DNA from: Burkholderia pyrrocinia
Lineage (GTDB): Bacteria > Pseudomonadota > Gammaproteobacteria > Burkholderiales > Burkholderiaceae
DNA length: 64,000 bases
Direction: 5' to 3'
Assembly: GCF_018417535.1 (NCBI RefSeq)
Contig: NZ_CP070977.1
Coordinates: 1,116,001 to 1,180,000, forward strand
Shown here: one piece after another, positions 2,657 through 52,391 of the stretch
How the letters are laid out: each line of letters opens with the position of its first letter
Numbering within the stretch: position 1 is the stretch's first letter
Made by a program: the position numbers and the translations under genes
The notes under the pieces: generated by a model
The model's input: only the letters and a program-made list of their open reading frames with translations
The model's database searches: none
Told to the model about the DNA's origin: nothing

Positions 2657-2790
2657 CCGGCTCGACCGGCGCATACTCGTGCGGGCAATCGCCGTCGATG
2701 GCGTGCCGTCAGCGGAAGGAACGGGACGGTGCGGCCTTCAAGAACGACAGACCGTGCACCGAAGGAAGAGAAAGGCGCGCCGCCGGTGTG

Positions 2791-3228
2791 TCATTTCGGC
2801 GCCGACGCGGCACTGGCCGCGTTGCCGGGCCATGCCTTGCCGATCTGGTCGATCAACGATTTCGCGGTGCCGGTTGCGAGCGCCGCGTCGACGCCTGACG
2901 TCTGCCACGAGCCGTCAGCGGCCTTCACGAAGGTCAGGTTCGCGCGCGACGGCGAGTAATCGGCATTGCGCCACGTGACGACGACGTCGCACGAGTACGT
3001 GCGATCGCCGAGCTTCTTGCAGTCGCCGTCGGGTTTCGCCGACACGACGTCGGCCGATACCGGCAGCGGCTGGCCGAACAGCGCGTTCAGGCCGCCGTGG
3101 TTTTCCGCTTCGAGCGCGCGGCGCACCGCGGCGTCGACGTCGCTCGATCCGGGGCCGTCGTGGAGCAGGTTGCAGGCGGCCAGCAGCGTCGATGCACAGC
3201 CGAGTGTCAGCAGCGTTTGGAACTTCAT
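2791..3228 (-). CDS. Putative lipoprotein, unknown function
   Basis: A 145-residue protein starting MKFQTLLTLGCASTLLAAC; the lipobox LAAC puts the lipidated Cys at residue 19. The mature part has a Cys pair (GDCKKLGDRTYSCD) that could form a disulfide, and an Ala-rich end. It probably sits in the outer or inner membrane facing the periplasm. No named family is recognised. It lies downstream of nothing obvious and is likely monocistronic. Confidence 0.75.
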   Translation of the reverse strand: MKFQTLLTLGCASTLLAACNLLHDGPGSSDVDAAVRRALEAENHGGLNALFGQPLPVSADVVSAKPDGDCKKLGDRTYSCDVVVTWRNADYSPSRANLTFVKAADGSWQTSGVDAALATGTAKSLIDQIGKAWPGNAASAASAPK

Positions 3229-3399
3229 GGATATCCGTCAATCGGGTGAACGTCGGGGGGCGCGCGGCGACATGCATGAATGCAGTCGCCGTGCCGCTAC
3301 GCCGCGTAGTCTGCAACGTCCGCGCGTCGTTCGCGGTATCCATTTGTAACCAATTGCACGGACGCGCTGCGGCACGGCGCGTCCGTGTGACGCCCGCGC

Positions 3400-27049: not shown

Positions 27050-27259
27050 GCACCCTTCCCCATCGTTCGATTCCATCGTGTCGCCGCGCGGCCGTGAAAG
27101 AGCCGGCGCAGCCGTCCCCATTGCGAAAGACGGCATGGTACCGTGTTCCATCCCGCGTTTCATCTGCCGGCACGCCAGCGCCGGGCTGTCCCGCCTCGTC
27201 TGTCGCGAACCGCCTTCCGGTCGCGAAACGCGGTCGAAATCAGGTATCCTACGGCCGTT
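27050..27259. promoter_or_regulatory. Divergent promoter region cobL / cobG
   Basis: 210 bp that must hold promoters for both cob operons. A sigma-70 -10-like GTATCCTAC at about 27244-27252 sits just before the riboswitch on the plus strand. No B12 box is present on the minus strand, so the cobL side seems not to be riboswitch controlled. Confidence 0.4.
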
Positions 27260-27430
27260 CGTTCGCCGGTGCCCTTCGGGGCCGAAGAGGGAACACAGGG
27301 CGCATCGCGCGCCGCTGTGGCTGCCCCCGCAACTGTAGACAGCGAGCCGATCTCCCCCCTGATGCCACTGGTTCGACCGGGAAGGCCGGGAGCCGGCGCC
27401 GACCTGTCAGCCAGGAGACCTGCCGGCCAG
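27260..27430 (+). ncRNA. Cobalamin riboswitch upstream of cobG
   Basis: AdoCbl-type aptamer. Conserved parts in order: AGAGGGAACACAGG (27286-27299), CTGCCCCCGCAACTGT (27321-27336), GCCACTG (27364-27370), CCGGGAAGGCC (27377-27387) and the B12 box AGCCAGGAGACCTGCC (27409-27424). GCCGG (27265-27269) can close P1 with CCGGC (27423-27427). The distance to the cobG TTG (about 80 nt) leaves room for an expression platform; GGGGTGTACCG and CGGTACCCC there could pair across the start region. Cobalamin binding should lower cobGHIJ expression. Confidence 0.93.
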
Positions 27431-27509
27431 AAAGTGCGTGCGTGCCAGTCGGCGTCGGGCGGGGTGTACCGATGCGTTGGCCGCGGCGCGACACTGTCCC
27501 GGTACCCCG

Positions 27510-41440: not shown

Positions 41441-42124
41441 TCAGCCTGCGAGGTCCGTGCAAAGCGCATCGGCCATCACCCACTGCCCGCCCCACGCATC
41501 GGCCAGCCGTGCACCCTGCCCGAGCCGCACGGCCGCGTCGTCGAAGTCGACGAACACGACATGATCGGCCGCCGCGGGTTTCGCCGGCACTTCGCGCGTG
41601 CGCCCGTCGGACAACACCCACAGCCAGCGCTGCTTGTCGGGCGCACGCCGCGCATCGCGCGCGAGCAACTGGGCGGCGGCCGCGATGCCGTCCGCGAGCG
41701 GCGTGCCGCCGCCGCCGTCGACCGGTTCGAGCCAGCGCGCATTCCACCAGCGCGGCACGGCCGGGCCGAAGCGCCGCGCGGCGCCGTTGCCGCCGAAGCA
41801 GATCAGCGCGGTTTCGACGCGGTCGCGCGCGGCGCGATCGAAATACGCGACGATCAGCCCCTTGGCCAGCGCGAGCCGCTCGTGCGATAGCATCGACGCC
41901 GAACAGTCGAGCACGAAGCAATGCAGCGCGTGCGGTGCGCCGGCCCGCTTCCGGAAGCGCAGATGGCCGTGATGCAGCGGGCCGCTGCGTTTCGCGGCGA
42001 GCGTCGCCGGCCACGCAACGGCGGTGCCGGCGCGCGCCGTGCCCGGCACGCGCGCGGCGGCGCCTTGCTGCCATCGAGGACCGCGAATGGTGTTCGCGGC
42101 GGCGCCGGCTCGATGGCTCAGCGT
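41441..42124 (-). CDS. chlD: C-terminal VWA half of cobalt chelatase ChlD, read in the -1 frame
   Basis: 227 residues reached by a -1 shift at 42124 from the upstream ATPase ORF; the fusion would be 584 residues. A von Willebrand A domain has the MIDAS motif FVLDCSASML, LICFGGNGAARRFG and GGGTPLADGIAAAAQLL. There is no ATG near its 5' end and only a poorly placed GTG, so independent initiation is weakly supported. The -1 frame is also open upstream of the shift site. ChlD is the medium subunit of the CobN-type cobalt chelatase. This is the last gene of the NiCoT-cobW-cobN-chlD operon. Confidence 0.85.
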   Translation of the reverse strand, partial: TLSHRAGAAANTIRGPRWQQGAAARVPGTARAGTAVAWPATLAAKRSGPLHHGHLRFRKRAGAPHALHCFVLDCSASMLSHERLALAKGLIVAYFDRAARDRVETALICFGGNGAARRFGPAVPRWWNARWLEPVDGGGGTPLADGIAAAAQLLARDARRAPDKQRWLWVLSDGRTREVPAKPAAADHVVFVDFDDAAVRLGQGARLADAWGGQWVMADALCTDLAG

Positions 42125-42130
42125 TTTTTT
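42070..42130 (-). promoter_or_regulatory. Programmed -1 ribosomal frameshift signal in chlD
   Basis: In the mRNA sense: slippery heptamer A-AAA-AAA in phase with the zero frame (42130-42124), a 6-nt spacer holding the zero-frame stop TGA (42120-42118), then a two-tier hairpin. The outer 9-bp stem is GCCATCGAG (42117-42109) with CTCGATGGC (42078-42070). The inner perfect 7-bp stem is CCGCGAA (42099-42093) with TTCGCGG (42087-42081). I see no clear Shine-Dalgarno-like stimulator upstream. Confidence 0.85.
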
Positions 42131-43194
42131 AGCGGCAGCGGCACGACGCTTTTCACGTCGCGCAGCCCGGCGGGTTCGGGCGGCAGGTAGCCCCAGTCGC
42201 CCTGCGATGCCGCGGCATCGTTTTTTGTCGCGCCCGGTCGGTCGTCGGGCTGCTGGCGCGCGTCCGGCGGCGAGCGATCGTCGCGTTCGCCGCCCGGCTG
42301 CGACGCGCCGGAAGGTGGCGGCGTACCCGCATGGCGCCGGTGCCGCAACACCGCTTCGGCCACGCGCTCCACATGCGACACCGTCACCGCATCGGCCTGT
42401 TCCAGCGCGGCGAGTGCGCGCGCGGCGCGCAGCATCACGAGATCGGCGCGCAATCCGTCGACGGCCGCGTCGATGCACAGCGCGCTGACGCGCGCATGGA
42501 CCGCATCGTCGAAATCCAGCATCGGCAGCCGTGCGCGCGCCGCATGAATCCGGTCGCCGAGTTCGCGCTGCGCGGCTGCATGCCGTGCGCGGAACGCGTC
42601 CGGATCGAGATCGAATGCGAGTCGGGCCTTCACGATCCGCTCACGCTGCGCGGCGTCGAAGCAGTTCTCGAGCTCGACCATCAGCCCGAAGCGGTCGAGC
42701 AACTGCGGGCGCAGCTCGCCCTCCTCGGGATTCATCGTGCCGACCAGCACGAAGCGCGCATCATGCGCGTGCGATACGCCATCGCGCTCGACGATGTTCA
42801 CGCCGCTCGCGGCGACGTCGAGCAGCGTATCGACGAGCCCGTCGGCGAGCAGGTTCACTTCGTCGACATACAGCACGCCGAGATGCGCGCGAGCCAGCAG
42901 GCCCGGCCGGAAGCGCACGCCGTTCTCCGCGAGCGCATGCGCGAGATCGAGCGAGCCCGTCACCTGTTCGTCGCTCGCCGACAGCGGCAACGTGACGAAC
43001 TGCCCTTCGGGCAGCAGCTCCGCGAGGCCGCGCGCGGCGGTCGATTTCGCGGTGCCGCGCGGGCCGCTCACCAGCACGCCGCCGAGCGACGGATCGATCG
43101 CGGCGAGCAGCAGCGCCTGCTGCAAGGCATCCTGCGCGACGAGCGCCGCAAACGGAAAGACCGCGCGGGCGCGGTGCGTTGTCGGATCGGTCAT
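42118..43194 (-). CDS. chlD: Cobalt chelatase ATPase: ChlI-like product, and N-terminal half of ChlD
   Basis: A 358-residue AAA+ protein if translation stops at 42118. Walker A is GPRGTAKSTAARG, Walker B region VLYVDEVNLLADGLVDTLLD, sensor region VGTMNPEEGELRPQLLDRFG. The last 60 residues are the Pro/Asp-rich linker typical of ChlD (GERDDRSPPDARQQPDDRPG), which a plain ChlI lacks. The end LPLKKR-stop sits on the A7 slippery run. No separate chlI gene is in the operon, so this termination product probably supplies the small subunit. The ATG at 43194 overlaps the cobN stop by 4 bp. Confidence 0.9.
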   Translation of the reverse strand: MTDPTTHRARAVFPFAALVAQDALQQALLLAAIDPSLGGVLVSGPRGTAKSTAARGLAELLPEGQFVTLPLSASDEQVTGSLDLAHALAENGVRFRPGLLARAHLGVLYVDEVNLLADGLVDTLLDVAASGVNIVERDGVSHAHDARFVLVGTMNPEEGELRPQLLDRFGLMVELENCFDAAQRERIVKARLAFDLDPDAFRARHAAAQRELGDRIHAARARLPMLDFDDAVHARVSALCIDAAVDGLRADLVMLRAARALAALEQADAVTVSHVERVAEAVLRHRRHAGTPPPSGASQPGGERDDRSPPDARQQPDDRPGATKNDAAASQGDWGYLPPEPAGLRDVKSVVPLPLKKR

Positions 43195-46100
43195 CGCCGT
43201 CCCCCTTCCTGGAGTTGTTCACTCGCGAGCCAGACCGCTTCGATCCGTTCGCGATAGTCGCCCGGCTGCTGCCACAAGCCGCGCTGCATCGCCTCGACGA
43301 AGCGTTCGCAGATGCCGTGCAGCGCCTTCGGGTTGTGCCGTTCGAGGAACGCGCGCGTGTCGTCGTCGAACAGGTATGCGTCGGCGACGAGCGCGTACTG
43401 GTGATCGGACAGCACGCGCGCGGTCGCGTCATAGCCGTACAGGTAGTCGACGGTCGCGGCCAGCTCGGCCGCGCCCTTGTAACCATGGCGCTTCACGCCG
43501 TCGAGCCATTTCGGGTTGACGACGCGCGAGCGGATCACGCGCGCGATCTCCTCGCGCAGCGTGCGCATCTTCGGCGCGACCGGGTTCGCATGGTCGCCGT
43601 GGTAGATGCTCGGCTGCTGCCCGGACAGGTGCCGCACGGCCGCCGTCATCCCGCCCTGGAACTGGTAGTAGTCGTTCGAATCGAGGATGTCGTGCTCGCG
43701 GCTGTCCTGGTTCTGCACGACGACGTCGATCGTCGCCAGCCGCTCGCCGAACACGTCGGGCGCGGCGTCGCCCGCGCTGTTCTGCGCGTACGCATGGCCG
43801 CCCCACTGGCGGTACGCATCCGCGAGATCGGCGTCGGTCTGCCAGCGGCGCTGGTCGATCAGGTCCTGCAGGCCCGCGCCGTAGCTGCCCGGCCGCGCGC
43901 CGAACACGCGCCAGCCGGCGCGGCGCCGCGCTTCGTCGGGCGGCACGCCCTGCGTGATCCATTTCGCGCGTTCGCGCTCGATGCGTGCGCGGATCGGGTT
44001 CATTTCCTCCGGCTCGTCGAGCGCGGCGACGGCCTGCACGGCCGCGTCGAACAGGTGCATCAGGTTCGGAAACGCGTCGCGGAAGAAGCCCGATACGCGC
44101 AGTGTCACGTCGATGCGCGGCCGGTCGAAGATCTCGATCGGCAGGATCTCGAAGTCGGTCACGCGATGGCTGCCGTGCGCCCATTTCGGCCGCACGCCGA
44201 GCAGCGCGAACGCCTGCGCGATGTCGTCGCCGCCCGTGCGCATCGTCGCCGTACCCCACACCGACAGGCCGATCGCGCGCGGATAGTCGCCGTGATCCTG
44301 CAGATGACGCTCGATCAGCTGTTGCGCGGATTTCAGGCCGAGCGACCACGCTGCCTGCGTCGGCACTGCGCGCGTGTCGACCGAGTAGAAATTTCGGCCG
44401 GTCGGCAGCACGTCGGGACGGCCGCGCGACGGCGAACCGCTCGGCCCCGGCGGCACGAAGCGGCCGTCGAGCCCGCGCAGCAACTGGCGCATTTCCTCGC
44501 CGCCGCATGCGTCGAGCGCAGGCATCAGCGTCGCGCGAACGCGTTCGATCACCGCGAGCGTATGCGGCCATTCGCCGGGCGGCGTCGCGTCGGTGCCGGG
44601 GTTGCCCCCGGTGGCCGCGCACAGCCCGTCCAGCCATTGCTGCGCGAGCCGTTCGAGCCGCTCGCGCGTATCGCCCGCATGACGCCACGGCGATCCATCG
44701 AGCGCCTGCAGGATCGCCGGGCGCGGGCCGGCCCACGGCGCGGCCCAGTCGGCCGACAGCGGATCGAAATCGTCGCCGAGCATCAGGTCGCGCGCGAGCG
44801 CGCCGATCAGCCCCGCGCGCGCGCCCTTGCCGTCGCCGACCGGAAAGCGCGCGAGCGCAAGCAGCGTGTCGCGTCGCTGGCGATCGGCCGGCGACACGCC
44901 GAACACGTGCAGCCCGTCGCGAATCTGCGCTTCCTTCAATTCGCACAGCCACGCGTCGACTCGCGTCAGCAGCGCATCCTCGTCGCCCGCGTCGCGCGGC
45001 GGCGATACGCTCAGTTCGTCGTGCAGCCGATGTTCGGCGATCGTCGCGAGGATCGTCTTGCGCAGCAGCTTCGCGCGCCGCGCGTCGACCATCAGCGCTT
45101 CGTAGTATTCGTCGACCTGCCGCTCGAGATCCTGCAGCGGCCCGTAGTTTTCCGCGCGCGTGAGCGGCGGCATCAGGTGATCGACGATCACCGCCTGCGC
45201 GCGGCGCTTCGCCTGGCTGCCCTCGCCCGGATCGTTGACGATGAACGGATACAGGTGCGGCAGCGGCCCGAGCGTCAGGTCGGGCCAGCACGCGTCGGAC
45301 AGCGCGACGCTCTTGCCCGGCAGCCATTCGAGGTTGCCGTGCTTGCCGAGGTGGATGACCGCGTCGATGCGATACGCATCGCGCAGCCAGAAATAGAACG
45401 CGAGGTACGCATGCGGCGGCACGAGATCCGCGTCGTGGTAGCTCGCGTAGTCGTTCTCGCCGCGCGAGCGCGACGGCTGGATGCCGACGAACACGTTGCC
45501 CGCGCGCCAGCCCGCGATCGTGAAACGCCCGTGGCGCAGCGTCGGGTCGGCCTCGGGCGGGCCCCAGCGCTCGTTCAGCGCGTCGCGCACGGCCGCCGGC
45601 AGCCGCGCGAAATGCGCGGCGTAGTCGGCCAGCGCGAAACTCTGGAACGCCGGGCGCAGCGCATGCACGGCCACGTCGTTGGTCACGCCTTCGGTGAGCC
45701 GTGCGATCAGCGCGTCGCCATCGGGCGGCAGGTCGGCCAGCGCGTAGCCCGCGTCGCGCAGCGCCGCGAGCACGCGCAGCGCGGACGCCGGCGTGTCGAG
45801 CCCGACGCCGTTGCCGATCCGCCCTTCGCTTTGCGGATAGTTCGCGAGAATCAGCGCGATGCGCTTGCTCGCGTTGTCGAGCGTGCGCAGCCGGCACCAG
45901 CCGCGCGCGAGCGCCGCGACGAACGCGATCCGCTCGGCGTCCGGCTGATAGCGCACGACGTCGACCTCGGTGTGCGGACAGCGATACGCGAGCCCCTTGA
46001 AGCTCACCGCGCGCGTGACGATGCGCCCGTCGACCTCGGGCAGCGCGATATGCATCGCGATGTCGCGTGCGTGCAGGCCCTGGTTATCGGTGACCCATGC

Positions 46101-47000
46101 GTCGCGATTGCCGCCGGACAGGATCACCTGCAGCACCGGCGCGTCGCCGGCGAGCACCTCCGGCTCGGCCGCATCGATCGCGCCGGCCGCGAACGCGGTC
46201 GTGTTCAGCACGAGCGCGACGCCGTGCGTATCGCAGAGTTGCGTGATGACCTCGCGACTCACCGCGTCCTTCAGCGACGTCACCGCGATCGGCAGCGGAT
46301 TCAGCCCCTCCCGAACGAGTGCGTCGGCCAGCGCATCGAACACGGCCGTGTTCGCGGCCTGCCAGTGCGCACGATAGAACAGGATCGCGACGACCGGCGC
46401 GCCGGGCGTGCAGCGCGGCCGCCAGTCGTCGACGCTCGCGCGGTCGCGCGCCGGGTGATACAGCGCGGCGGCCGGCAGCGGACGCGGCAGCTCGGGTTCG
46501 TCGCCGAAGCCGAGCGTATGGAATGCGATGCTGCGCAGCAGCGCGTCGGCGTTGTGCACGCCGCCTTCGCGCAGGTAACGCCACCACAGCCGGCACAGGT
46601 CGGGCGCGACCGTGCTTTTCGCGACGAGGTTCGGGTCTTCCTGCAGGTCGCCCGAGAACATCGCGAGCTGCTGAGCGCGCTTCGACGCGAGCGACTCGGC
46701 CTGCTCGATCCCGTACGGCCAGTACGCTTCGCCGCCGAGATGATCGATCACGACCGTCTTCGCGTGGCGCAGCACGTCGTCGACATAGAAATCGACGGAC
46801 GCCGGCTGCCGCAGGAACGTGACGTTCGCGAGCCGCACGCTCGGGAAGCCGGCCGGCAGTTGCGGCACGACGCTCGCGAGCAGCGACAGCGTCGTGTCGG
46901 CCGAACTCAGGATCACGATGTCGGCCGGCTGCTGGTCGATCCGGACGACGCCCTGCGTATCGTCGACGAAGCCGCCCGGCGTGGTGCGCAGCAGATGCAT
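43191..47000 (-). CDS. cobN: Cobaltochelatase large subunit
   Basis: A 1269-residue CobN, the subunit that binds hydrogenobyrinate a,c-diamide and inserts cobalt using ATP. Typical blocks are SSADTTLSLLASVVPQLPAG at the N terminus, VIHLGKHGNLEWLPGKSVAL in the middle and YGAGLQDLIDQRRWQTDADL, SNDYYQFQGGMTAAVRHLSG toward the C terminus. The length is normal. It starts 6 bp after cobW and overlaps the chelatase ATPase gene by ATGA, so all chelatase parts are co-expressed. Confidence 0.96.
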   Translation of the reverse strand: MHLLRTTPGGFVDDTQGVVRIDQQPADIVILSSADTTLSLLASVVPQLPAGFPSVRLANVTFLRQPASVDFYVDDVLRHAKTVVIDHLGGEAYWPYGIEQAESLASKRAQQLAMFSGDLQEDPNLVAKSTVAPDLCRLWWRYLREGGVHNADALLRSIAFHTLGFGDEPELPRPLPAAALYHPARDRASVDDWRPRCTPGAPVVAILFYRAHWQAANTAVFDALADALVREGLNPLPIAVTSLKDAVSREVITQLCDTHGVALVLNTTAFAAGAIDAAEPEVLAGDAPVLQVILSGGNRDAWVTDNQGLHARDIAMHIALPEVDGRIVTRAVSFKGLAYRCPHTEVDVVRYQPDAERIAFVAALARGWCRLRTLDNASKRIALILANYPQSEGRIGNGVGLDTPASALRVLAALRDAGYALADLPPDGDALIARLTEGVTNDVAVHALRPAFQSFALADYAAHFARLPAAVRDALNERWGPPEADPTLRHGRFTIAGWRAGNVFVGIQPSRSRGENDYASYHDADLVPPHAYLAFYFWLRDAYRIDAVIHLGKHGNLEWLPGKSVALSDACWPDLTLGPLPHLYPFIVNDPGEGSQAKRRAQAVIVDHLMPPLTRAENYGPLQDLERQVDEYYEALMVDARRAKLLRKTILATIAEHRLHDELSVSPPRDAGDEDALLTRVDAWLCELKEAQIRDGLHVFGVSPADRQRRDTLLALARFPVGDGKGARAGLIGALARDLMLGDDFDPLSADWAAPWAGPRPAILQALDGSPWRHAGDTRERLERLAQQWLDGLCAATGGNPGTDATPPGEWPHTLAVIERVRATLMPALDACGGEEMRQLLRGLDGRFVPPGPSGSPSRGRPDVLPTGRNFYSVDTRAVPTQAAWSLGLKSAQQLIERHLQDHGDYPRAIGLSVWGTATMRTGGDDIAQAFALLGVRPKWAHGSHRVTDFEILPIEIFDRPRIDVTLRVSGFFRDAFPNLMHLFDAAVQAVAALDEPEEMNPIRARIERERAKWITQGVPPDEARRRAGWRVFGARPGSYGAGLQDLIDQRRWQTDADLADAYRQWGGHAYAQNSAGDAAPDVFGERLATIDVVVQNQDSREHDILDSNDYYQFQGGMTAAVRHLSGQQPSIYHGDHANPVAPKMRTLREEIARVIRSRVVNPKWLDGVKRHGYKGAAELAATVDYLYGYDATARVLSDHQYALVADAYLFDDDTRAFLERHNPKALHGICERFVEAMQRGLWQQPGDYRERIEAVWLASEQLQEGGRR

Positions 47001-47006
47001 CGCGCG

Positions 47007-48086
47007 TTACGCCTGTTGCGGTTCGGCCGCGCACGCGGCGTCGAACGCGCGCTGCAGCGCGGCCGCGTCGAGATCCTCGCCGATCAGCACGAAGCGGCTC
47101 GCGCGCGTTTCGCCGTCCTGCCAGCGGCGGTCGAAATAGCTGTCGAAGCGGCGGCCGACGCCCTGGATCACGAGCCGCATCGGCGCGCCGGGCAGCGCGG
47201 CGAAGCCTTTCGCGCGGTAGATCGTGTGCGTCTCGACGACACGCTGCAGCGCGGCGATCGTCGCTTCGCGCGTGAGCGCGTCGCCCGACACGACCACCGA
47301 GTCGAAATCGTCGTGATGATGATCGTGATCGCCGTCGTCGGCCGAGCCGTGATGGTCGTGACGCAGGTGGATCGTTTCCTCCGACGCCGATTCGAGCCCG
47401 AGCAGCATCGCGAGGTCGAGCTCGCCGCGCGTCGCGCGCACGATCTTCACCTGCGGCGGGATCTCGTCGCGGATCGCGGTTTCGATCTGCGCGAACTGCG
47501 CGTCGCCGACGAGATCGGCCTTGTTCACGATCACGAGATCGGCGGACGACAGTTGGTCGGCGAACAGTTCGTGCAGCGGCGATTCATGATCGAGGTTCGG
47601 ATCGGCGCGGCGTTGCGCGTCGACGGCCTGCGGGTTTTCCGCGAACTGGCCGCTCGCGGCCGCCGGCCCGTCGACGACGGTCACGACCGCGTCGACCGTG
47701 AAGCTGTTGCGGATCGTCGGCCAGTTGAACGCCTGCACGAGCGGCTTCGGCAGCGCGAGCCCGGAAGTCTCGATCAGCACGTGGTCGATGTCCGCGCGGC
47801 GCTCGACGAGCGCCTCCATCACCGGGTAGAACTCTTCCTGCACCGTGCAGCACAGGCAGCCGTTCGCGAGCTCGTAAAGCTGGCCCGACGCTTCGTCCTG
47901 CGCGTCGTCGCAGCCGATGCCGCAGCCCTTGAGGATTTCGCCGTCGATGCCGAGCTCGCCGAATTCGTTGACGATCACCGCGATGCGGCGGCCTTCGGCG
48001 TGCTGCAGGATGTGGCGCATCAGCGTCGTCTTGCCGCTGCCGAGAAAGCCCGTGACGATCGTGACGGGCAGCTTGCGTAGGGTCAT
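47007..48086 (-). CDS. cobW: CobW-family zinc/cobalt-related G3E GTPase
   Basis: A 359-residue GTPase: Walker A VTGFLGSGKTTLMRHIL at the N terminus, the metal-binding NGCLCCTV (CxCC), ETSGLALPKPLV, the G4 motif VIVNKADLV and a His-rich loop (HLRHDHHGSADDGDHDHHHD) before the C-terminal CobW domain. G3E GTPases deliver metal to partner enzymes; beside cobN this one probably serves cobalt loading. It lies 25 bp after the NiCoT transporter gene and 6 bp before cobN. Confidence 0.95.
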   Translation of the reverse strand: MTLRKLPVTIVTGFLGSGKTTLMRHILQHAEGRRIAVIVNEFGELGIDGEILKGCGIGCDDAQDEASGQLYELANGCLCCTVQEEFYPVMEALVERRADIDHVLIETSGLALPKPLVQAFNWPTIRNSFTVDAVVTVVDGPAAASGQFAENPQAVDAQRRADPNLDHESPLHELFADQLSSADLVIVNKADLVGDAQFAQIETAIRDEIPPQVKIVRATRGELDLAMLLGLESASEETIHLRHDHHGSADDGDHDHHHDDFDSVVVSGDALTREATIAALQRVVETHTIYRAKGFAALPGAPMRLVIQGVGRRFDSYFDRRWQDGETRASRFVLIGEDLDAAALQRAFDAACAAEPQQA

Positions 48087-48111: not shown

Positions 48112-49170
48112 TCAGGCCGAGATCGTCACGTCGATCTCGTCGTAGCGCTTTAACCGGTAGATCAGGGCCGACACGAGCCAGCATGCGAGGAACAGGCCGA
48201 TCACGACGTAGCCGAGCATGCCGAAATGCGACGCCACCATCGACGCGAAGTCCCACACCGGGCCCTGCAGCGACAGCTTGTCCGCGAGCAGCGCGAGCAC
48301 CTCGATGCCGCCGATCAGCGCGGCGACCAGCACCGACACGAAGGTGATCGTCATGTTGTAGTAGATCTTGCGGATCGGCCGCACGTACGCCCAGCGATAC
48401 GCGCCCATCATCAGGATGCCGTCGGTCGTGTCGACCAGCGTCATGCCGGCGGTGAACAGCACCGGCAGCGCCATCACGGACCAGAACGACAGACCGCCCT
48501 GCACCTGCGCCGCCGAGATGCCGAACAGCGCGATCTCGGTCGCCGTATCGAAGCCGAAGCCGAACAGGAACCCGACCGGATACAGGTGCCAGCTACGCGA
48601 CACGAGCCGGAACAGCGGGCGGAACAGGCGCGCGAGCACGCCGCGCTGGTTCAGCAGCAGGTCGAGATCGGCGTCGACGATCGGCTCGCCGCGCCGCGCG
48701 GCGCGAAACGTCCGGTAGACGGAAATCAGGATCAGCAGGTTCGCGATCGCGAGCACCAGCAGGAAGAACGCCGACACGCTCGTGCTGATCACGCCCCCCC
48801 ACGCTTTCATGCTCTCGAAGCGCGCGAGCGACGCGGCCGTGAGCGTGACCACGACCGACATCACCATCACCACCGTCGAGTGGCCGAGCGAGAAGAACAG
48901 GCCCGCGCCGAGCGGGCTGCGGCCCTCCTGCATCAGCTTGCGCGTGACGTTGTCGATGGCCGCGATGTGGTCGGCGTCGACCGCATGGCGCAGCCCGAAC
49001 ACGTACGCGAGCAGCGCGGTGCCGAGCAGCACGGGCTGGTCGTGGAAGGCGGCGAACGCCCAGATCCACGCGCCTGCGTTGAAGGCGATCAGCAGCGCAT
49101 AGATCGCGACGATCTTGCCGCGCAGCCCGGAGGAACTGTCGTTGAACAGGCGAAACAGCGAATCGAGCAT
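48112..49170 (-). CDS. NiCoT-family nickel/cobalt permease (HoxN/NixA type)
   Basis: A 352-residue inner-membrane transporter with eight predicted spans. The family signature RHAVDADHIAAIDNVTRKLM (HX4DH) lies in the second span; further blocks are FFSLGHSTVVM, GFGFDTATEI and LFTAGMTLVDTTDGILM. AAAGGAG precedes the ATG at 49170. It is the first gene behind a cobalamin riboswitch, which makes cobalt the likely main substrate, supplying CobN. Confidence 0.95.
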   Translation of the reverse strand: MLDSLFRLFNDSSSGLRGKIVAIYALLIAFNAGAWIWAFAAFHDQPVLLGTALLAYVFGLRHAVDADHIAAIDNVTRKLMQEGRSPLGAGLFFSLGHSTVVMVMSVVVTLTAASLARFESMKAWGGVISTSVSAFFLLVLAIANLLILISVYRTFRAARRGEPIVDADLDLLLNQRGVLARLFRPLFRLVSRSWHLYPVGFLFGFGFDTATEIALFGISAAQVQGGLSFWSVMALPVLFTAGMTLVDTTDGILMMGAYRWAYVRPIRKIYYNMTITFVSVLVAALIGGIEVLALLADKLSLQGPVWDFASMVASHFGMLGYVVIGLFLACWLVSALIYRLKRYDEIDVTISA

Positions 49171-49371
49171 GACGCTCCTTTGCGAACGGTCGACATGAAG
49201 AATGCCAACACGGCCGTCGCTGCCCGGCCCCGCGCGGTCCGGCCTGCCATCGGGCCGGATCATGCGCGCTCGCGCAGGCGGCCGGACGACGGGAATCGGG
49301 AAACGCTCGGGTGTCGGGCACGCTGCGGCCGTGGACGATGCGCCGCCTCCCCGCGGCGCTGAACCCCAATG
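49171..49371 (-). promoter_or_regulatory. Leader between riboswitch and NiCoT gene
   Basis: About 200 nt of transcript leader that can hold the expression platform. A hairpin GCGCCGC / GCGGCGC (49340-49359), enclosing a GGGGAG loop in the mRNA, lies 17 nt past the aptamer and could be a regulated stem. Confidence 0.45.
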
Positions 49372-49580
49372 TTTAGGCCGGTATCCGGGCTGGCGAACAC
49401 GCCGCTTCGCCTTCCCGGGTGCACAGGGCATCCAGTGGCGGTCGTCCGCATGCGCGCGCGGCATGCGGCGAAGCGGCGCTGCATCGCGGCGGGCACGATG
49501 CGTTCGCTTACCGTTGCGGGGGCAGCACAGGTTGGCTCGACTGCGATGCAGGCAGGCTCCCTGTTTCCCGTTTAACTGCG
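49372..49580 (-). ncRNA. Cobalamin riboswitch upstream of NiCoT-cobW-cobN-chlD
   Basis: Read on the minus strand: GTTAAACGGGAAACAGGG (start near 49577), GCTGCCCCCGCAACGGTAAG, CGCCACTGGATG, CCGGGAAGGC and the B12-box region GCCAGCCCGGATACCGGCC (49394-49376). All conserved blocks of the AdoCbl aptamer are present in order. It should shut down cobalt uptake and chelation when cobalamin is plentiful. It closely resembles the aptamer at 52145. Confidence 0.93.
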
Positions 49581-49713
49581 CGCGCCGGAGGGCGCGCGCG
49601 AGCACCAAAACGCGTGCGAGTGTAGGCGCCGGGGGCGGGAGCGTCAAGGCGGCCGCCGACGGGCGCGTCGGACGGGTTCGGTGCGTGTGTGCATCCTGCC
49701 GTCAACTTCAGAC

Positions 49714-51959: not shown

Positions 51960-52144
51960 CGACGCAGGGTCGCCGCCGCATGCCGGTCAACGCGTGCGAG
52001 TCAGCCTGGCGACCGACGCGACGTTTTTGCAACGCATGGAATCGGATTTGCCCTTGCCGTGCGTGGCGCCAGGGTCACGCATCGGCATGCCGACGCGTGT
52101 GCTATCGTATGCGCCGCGTTCGGTGCTCGCATGCGCATTCCGCG

Positions 52145-52330
52145 CATGCAGTTAAACGGGAAACAGGAGGCGGACCACCGCCCGGCCTGTGCTGTCCCCG
52201 CAACGGTACGCCGCCCGCGCGACGCGCTTCCCCGCGCACGCGCCCATGCCGCCCACGATGCCACTGCCCTTCAGCCGGGCGGGAAGGCTGCGGCCTGGCG
52301 AGCGGCCAGCCCGGATACCGGCCGACGCAA
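52145..52330 (+). ncRNA. Cobalamin riboswitch upstream of cobA-cobE-cobO-cobB
   Basis: Conserved blocks in order: GTTAAACGGGAAACAGG (52149-52165), CTGTCCCCGCAACGGT, GCCACTG at about 52259-52265, GCGGGAAGGC and the B12-box region GCCAGCCCGGATACCGGCC (52305-52323). Start and end blocks are almost identical to the minus-strand aptamer at 49372-49580, pointing to duplication or strong constraint. Confidence 0.93.
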
Positions 52331-52391
52331 GGGGCGAGCCCGACGCTCGCCGAACGCCCGATCCGCGGGGGACGGATGGGGTGCGCATTCC

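Follow-up and report, generated by a model that had tools for sequence, protein, structure and literature searches.

The locus analysed here raises the question whether a single chelatase gene, divided over two reading frames, can supply two different chelatase subunits. It lies on the minus strand of a 64,000-nucleotide stretch of the Burkholderia pyrrocinia genome (contig NZ_CP070977.1, hereafter the window), where an ATPase (AAA+) frame ends at a TGA and a VWA frame continues in the -1 frame. Under standard annotation this vitamin B12 gene would be split and appear as two proteins, and passages of Antonov et al. 2013 (PMC3711429) describe such fs-genes as having been shown in RefSeq as two adjacent genes. 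We conclude that the gene is very probably an fs-chlD, in which programmed -1 ribosomal frameshifting would give a short and a long chelatase product.

The coordinates and frames that the initial annotation had assigned to the two halves were confirmed (Table 1), and its product sizes of 358 and 584 residues agree with the lengths of the open reading frames: the full-length product consists of 357 residues from the ATPase half followed by 227 from the VWA half. The gene is located directly 3' of cobN, the stop codon of which overlaps the chlD start codon (ATGA). The cobalamin riboswitch upstream of the transporter gene would govern all four genes (transporter, cobW, cobN and chlD). Two more cobalamin riboswitches are present in the window, at 27250-27441 (+) and 52103-52340 (+), which brings their number to three.

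Table 1. Features of the fs-chlD locus and its neighbouring genes (positions in the window).
Feature	Position	Strand	Remarks
fs-chlD ATPase (AAA+) half	42118..43194	-	358 aa if the ribosome terminates at TGA 42120-42118
VWA half of fs-chlD	41441..42123	-	-1 frame (ACG CTG AGC ...), 227 residues from TLSHR; would form the C-terminal part of the long product
Slippery heptamer A_AAA_AAA	42124..42130	-	In phase with the ATPase frame
Spacer CGC TGA, 6 nt	42118..42123	-	Contains the zero-frame stop
Two-tier hairpin, 9-bp outer and 8-bp inner stem	42070..42117	-	Presumed stimulator (fold and covariation)
cobN, cobalt chelatase large subunit	43191..47000	-	TIGR02257, 1584.8 bits, above cut-off
cobW	47007..48086	-	TIGR02475, 486.7 bits, above cut-off
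NicO-family nickel/cobalt transporter gene	48112..49170 (start provisional)	-	Pfam PF03824, 345.4 bits
Cobalamin riboswitch upstream of transporter-cobW-cobN-chlD	49359..49624	-	RF00174, 52.8 bits

Pfam matches are found to Mg_chelatase and AAA_lid_2 in the ATPase half and to VWA_2 in the VWA half; over the ATPase half the closest named relative is Burkholderia arboris (95%). When scored apart, the two halves obtain 384.6 (ATPase) and 67.3 bits (VWA) with TIGR02442 (putative cobaltochelatase), both below the cut-off of 779.45. The in-frame cobaltochelatases of this family have the same domain order and homologous halves, but are encoded in a single frame where the present gene uses two. With the small-subunit equivalog TIGR02030 (ChlI/BchI) the ATPase half scores 321.4 bits, below the curated cut-off of 466.95. 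It covers model positions 1-54 and 93-314; since the approximately 38 positions in between are left unmatched throughout the genus, the short product departs from a canonical ChlI.

At the junction the zero frame reads CTA AAA AAA CGC TGA. This reading bears out both the in-phase heptamer and the 6-nt spacer with the stop that had been noted earlier. Of the hairpin proposed directly behind the stop the 9-bp outer stem stands as described, whereas RNAfold gives the inner stem 8 bp, namely the 7 pairs noted before plus a closing G-U. Its predicted energy is -26.5 kcal/mol (z -1.88), and 8 of 200 shuffled sequences are equally stable, so on its own the energy of this hairpin is only modestly above chance. 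Similarly, the heptamer is the single AAAAAAR in the window, counting both strands, against a mean chance expectation of 0.97. Given that about one such motif is expected anyway, it is the place and phase of the heptamer, its conservation in 63/63 loci and a stem with compensatory changes that rise above chance. No Rfam family is found at the chlD junction at gathering thresholds.

These elements suggest the following course of events. The hairpin would stall a ribosome that reads the junction, with its two lysine codons on the heptamer, and the two lysyl-tRNAs could then slip back by one base in tandem on A_AAA_AAA. Without a slip, translation would terminate at the TGA and leave a 358-residue protein made of the ATPase domain plus linker; with a slip, the VWA half would be read as well, giving an ATPase-VWA protein of approximately 584 residues. 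In an aerobic cobalt chelatase with CobN, the role of the small subunit (ChlI/CobS-like) might then fall to the short form and that of the medium subunit (ChlD/CobT-like) to the long form. A comparable arrangement is known from E. coli dnaX, where a slippery site of the A_AAA_AAG type and a downstream hairpin allow one gene to encode a short and a long AAA+ subunit, and where an upstream Shine-Dalgarno-like element is used as well. The outcome of the shift is reversed, however: it gives the short form in dnaX and would give the long form in fs-chlD.

In order to assess the conservation of the junction, 65 Burkholderia genomes were searched, of which 63 contain the ATPase half. CobN and fs-chlD co-occur in the identical 63 genomes; both are absent from the remaining two (G016, 99% complete, and G057, 82% complete). 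The VWA half occupies the -1 frame at all 63 loci, and a single in-frame chlD, which the initial annotation would have taken as a sign of a sequencing indel in the A7 run, occurs at none of them (0/63). The heptamer is AAAAAAA at 61 loci and AAAAAAG at 2, and invariably ends three bases ahead of a TGA (63/63). Of 62 loci, 59 have the predicted stem starting right after the stop, and in the other 3 it starts two bases further on. Its folding has a mean z of -1.77, with 54/62 loci below -1. Nonetheless, folding energy alone does not mark out the junction in the genus, because windows located 60 and 90 nt downstream fold more strongly (mean -32.5 and -32.6 kcal/mol, against -28.5 at the junction).

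Covariation is more informative. Among 57 sequences (41 distinct; six of the 63 loci were excluded), 99.1% of the pair cells are paired and double-sided changes are seen at 7 of 17 pairs (24 cells), against 30-46% paired and 0-7 double-sided cells for slid controls, though this comparison is tilted towards the unslid version from the outset, since the structure was taken from the sequence of the window. The heptamer, spacer and hairpin are conserved across the Burkholderia chlD loci, a comparison that the initial annotation had proposed, and the stem covaries. The VWA frame also varies in the manner of a coding sequence: at 40 loci with an ungapped VWA part of 225 codons, the variation at codon positions 1, 2 and 3 amounts to 0.051, 0.059 and 0.168 (nt 60-330). 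Silent variation is low at the junction: values of only 0 to 0.03 are reached at the third positions of the five final ATPase codons. It is true that homopolymer runs are error-prone and that one locus outside the genus (L152) has six A at the site plus a further break in the linker, but with the same -1 junction in 63/63 independent genomes, a VWA frame under codon constraint and a stem with compensatory changes, an A7 sequencing or assembly error or a decayed gene (the true chlD being a single in-frame gene, or dead) is scarcely credible.

Outside the genus we collected 94 loci, consisting of 74 named ones and 20 picked for open frames of at least 502 residues; in-frame genes are over-represented among these 20, as they were chosen by their long open frame. 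Both halves are present in 93 loci (L141 ends on its contig): 81 of them have the VWA half in the -1 frame, 11 are in-frame and L152 is disturbed (positions 2700-3300), due to either draft error or decay. The -1 layout recurs in other Burkholderiaceae, in Comamonadaceae and in Pseudomonas. At 80 of these -1 junctions the heptamer is AAAAAAA (38) or AAAAAAG (42), and three bases separate it from a stop that is TGA in 46, TAG in 33 and TAA in 1 case; the A run counts 6 (42 junctions), 7 (36) or 8 (2) bases. The remaining -1 locus, L090, was left out of the 80 since its ATPase reading ended early; a pattern search there shows A7, GCC and TGA. Over all 81 rows, counting L090, z averages -2.49, and of the 19 offsets compared it is at the junction that folding is strongest. 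Pairing in the Pseudomonas-type junctions (n=37, 34 distinct) extends to 94.7% of the pair cells, and 2 of the 10 pairs show double-sided changes. We also looked for a reversed, dnaX-like signal in the 11 in-frame relatives; this candidate was dropped as they have no common in-phase slippery site. Only L130 carries an A_AAA_AAA in the linker, with a -1 stop three codons further on.

The VWA half might alternatively be made as a separate protein, through reinitiation or translational coupling after the TGA and without any frameshift. A GTG does occur 23 codons into the VWA frame at 29 of 40 loci. Yet at 59 of 63 loci the 25 codons that lead up to the stop contain no start in the VWA frame, the downstream candidates are variable or absent, and such a mechanism would need neither an in-phase A_AAA_AAR nor a fixed 6-nt spacer. 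Moreover, according to passages of the 2013 study (PMC3711429), initiation was assayed separately there and the frameshift fusion was still seen. Overall, reinitiation appears highly improbable as the source of the VWA half.

Only slightly better placed, and still very unlikely, is transcriptional slippage, by which RNA polymerase would add or drop an A in the A7 run so that some of the mRNAs become in-frame. A homopolymeric A run is the kind of site where polymerases slip. However, 42 of the 80 junctions outside the genus and 2 of the 63 within it have only six A followed by G. Six A is short for polymerase slippage and ideal for tandem tRNA slippage. Slippage during transcription would furthermore leave the fixed phase, the spacer and the paired stem unexplained. 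Because all 63 loci share the arrangement and the stem shows compensatory changes, the -1 junction is not a sequencing error, and on comparative grounds its interpretation as a predicted site of ribosomal frameshifting is well supported.

The idea that -1 frameshifting in chlD makes both subunits was cited as an existing proposal in the initial annotation, and it is indeed in print (PMC9227772); the frameshift itself is published for the family and the genus (PMC3711429). Antonov et al. 2013 count 23 magnesium-chelatase fs-genes of the -1 type, spread over six genera of which Burkholderia is one, and report, for three family cassettes in E. coli, 63, 40 and 10% frameshifting with 11, 9 and 7 A (PMC3711429, in the passages compared). 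Atkins et al. 2016 (PMC5009743) describe purifying selection on A_AAA_AAR and the potential for a stem downstream of it, and Kuznetsov et al. 2022 (PMC9227772) regard both the small and the medium cobalt-chelatase subunit as products of fs-chlD. The archaeal cases are taken up again in a 2021 review (PMC8211752, passage). The passages of PMC7242693 contain no mention of a chlD frameshift. The present locus has in common with the published fs-chlD genes the gene itself, the -1 direction, A_AAA_AAR, the downstream stem-loop and the cobN companion, and there is no difference in kind; it belongs to the system already described in print, and its genus was among those named there. As far as can be read from the DNA, it combines a VWA half in the -1 frame, an in-phase A_AAA_AAR, a predicted covarying stem and a cobN for which no small-subunit gene was found (with at most 27 candidates scored per genome for chlI). 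The published proposal that the two products serve as small and medium subunits would fit such a locus. What is newly added are the conservation in 63/63 loci of the genus, the covariation of the Burkholderia hairpin (the published passages compared hold no such count) and the in-frame relatives in which no small-subunit gene was found.

The small-subunit gene content bears directly on the role of the short product. A search of the window's genome with the ATPase half returned only fs-chlD itself and one very weak place (E 9.6e-4, 20.3 bits). The earlier claim that no separate chlI accompanies cobN thus holds, also genome-wide as far as searched. A separate chlI elsewhere, which together with a missing frameshift product had been named beforehand as counting against frameshifting, was found neither in this genome nor in any of the 65 Burkholderia genomes when up to 27 candidates in each were scored against the ChlI model: in 63 of these the model gives two matches each, being adjacent pieces of fs-chlD. 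CobS and CobT, the small and medium subunits of the aerobic cobalt chelatase, belong to different families and have a presumed role with CobN in common with the fs-chlD products. Their models (TIGR01650 and TIGR01651) have no match in the window's genome, fs-chlD included. Strong CobS matches (531.8-540.0 bits, all below the cut-off of 558.55) with an adjoining CobT match occur in 19 of the 65 genus genomes. Eighteen of them are among the 63 with fs-chlD and the nineteenth is G016; since G016 has the pair without CobN or fs-chlD, the pair may serve a role that does not involve CobN. Examples of the pair are located at G058 C2:166695-169324 and G016 C1:357870-360514 (loci L165-L168). CobN itself comes as two separate matches at G063 C1:804604-807922, G026 C1:2399967-2403286 and G025 C223:5200-8384, which may represent an error, a gap or a real break.

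The ChlI model was also applied to 34 genomes, 24 with the -1 arrangement and 10 in-frame. A second ChlI-like place is present in 1/24 of the former (Hydrogenophaga) and in 0/10 of the latter, so that in this sample the frame state does not track the absence of a small-subunit gene. Considering the in-frame genomes, CobN is found in 10/11 and a strong CobS in 3/11. Eight of the 10 that were searched for both (G332, locus L091; G336, L099; G338, L101; G339, L104; G348, L132; G161, L163; G175, L162; G080, L164) have CobN, but the searches turned up no separate chlI and no full-strength CobS, indicating that a separate short product is not required in every lineage, though this in-frame sample is small and was picked by similarity. 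The role of the short product matters for this reason: several in-frame relatives seem to manage without a small-subunit gene.

It might thus be argued that frameshifting does take place, yet without the short product being obligatory as a small subunit. The long protein alone would then serve with CobN, and termination would set or regulate the amount of long form or yield a by-product. This is compatible with frameshifting at the junction, it agrees with the eight in-frame relatives, and a passage of the 2016 review poses the question of a regulatory frameshift (PMC5009743). Against it, the ATPase half has kept motifs resembling Walker A and B, both in the present gene and in almost every row of the tree set, and the in-frame genes form the small, similarity-chosen sample mentioned above. 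Antonov is also said to have observed, in 2020, that frameshift signals are enriched where small-subunit genes are absent. Altogether we regard a dispensable short product as unlikely, albeit clearly less so than reinitiation or polymerase slippage.

Somewhat more doubtful still is a further proposal, in which the frameshift chiefly tunes the ratio of short to long form, perhaps in response to metal or polyamines, rather than being an obligatory source of the small subunit. Here the frame state would have changed within Pseudomonadota, and since it would have done so without a compensating chlI or CobS being found, the long protein alone could work with CobN. A tree built from 42 selected rows places the in-frame genes of marine relatives, eight in number, next to Pseudomonas (95/85). 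This clade appears nested in the frameshifted set; a single clade of all -1 genes is not rejected (AU p 0.101, for rows selected by similarity). The Hydrogenophaga genome referred to above is that of H. intermedia (G334, locus L094), where the extra ChlI-like place lies at C44:135724-136548, besides fs-chlD.
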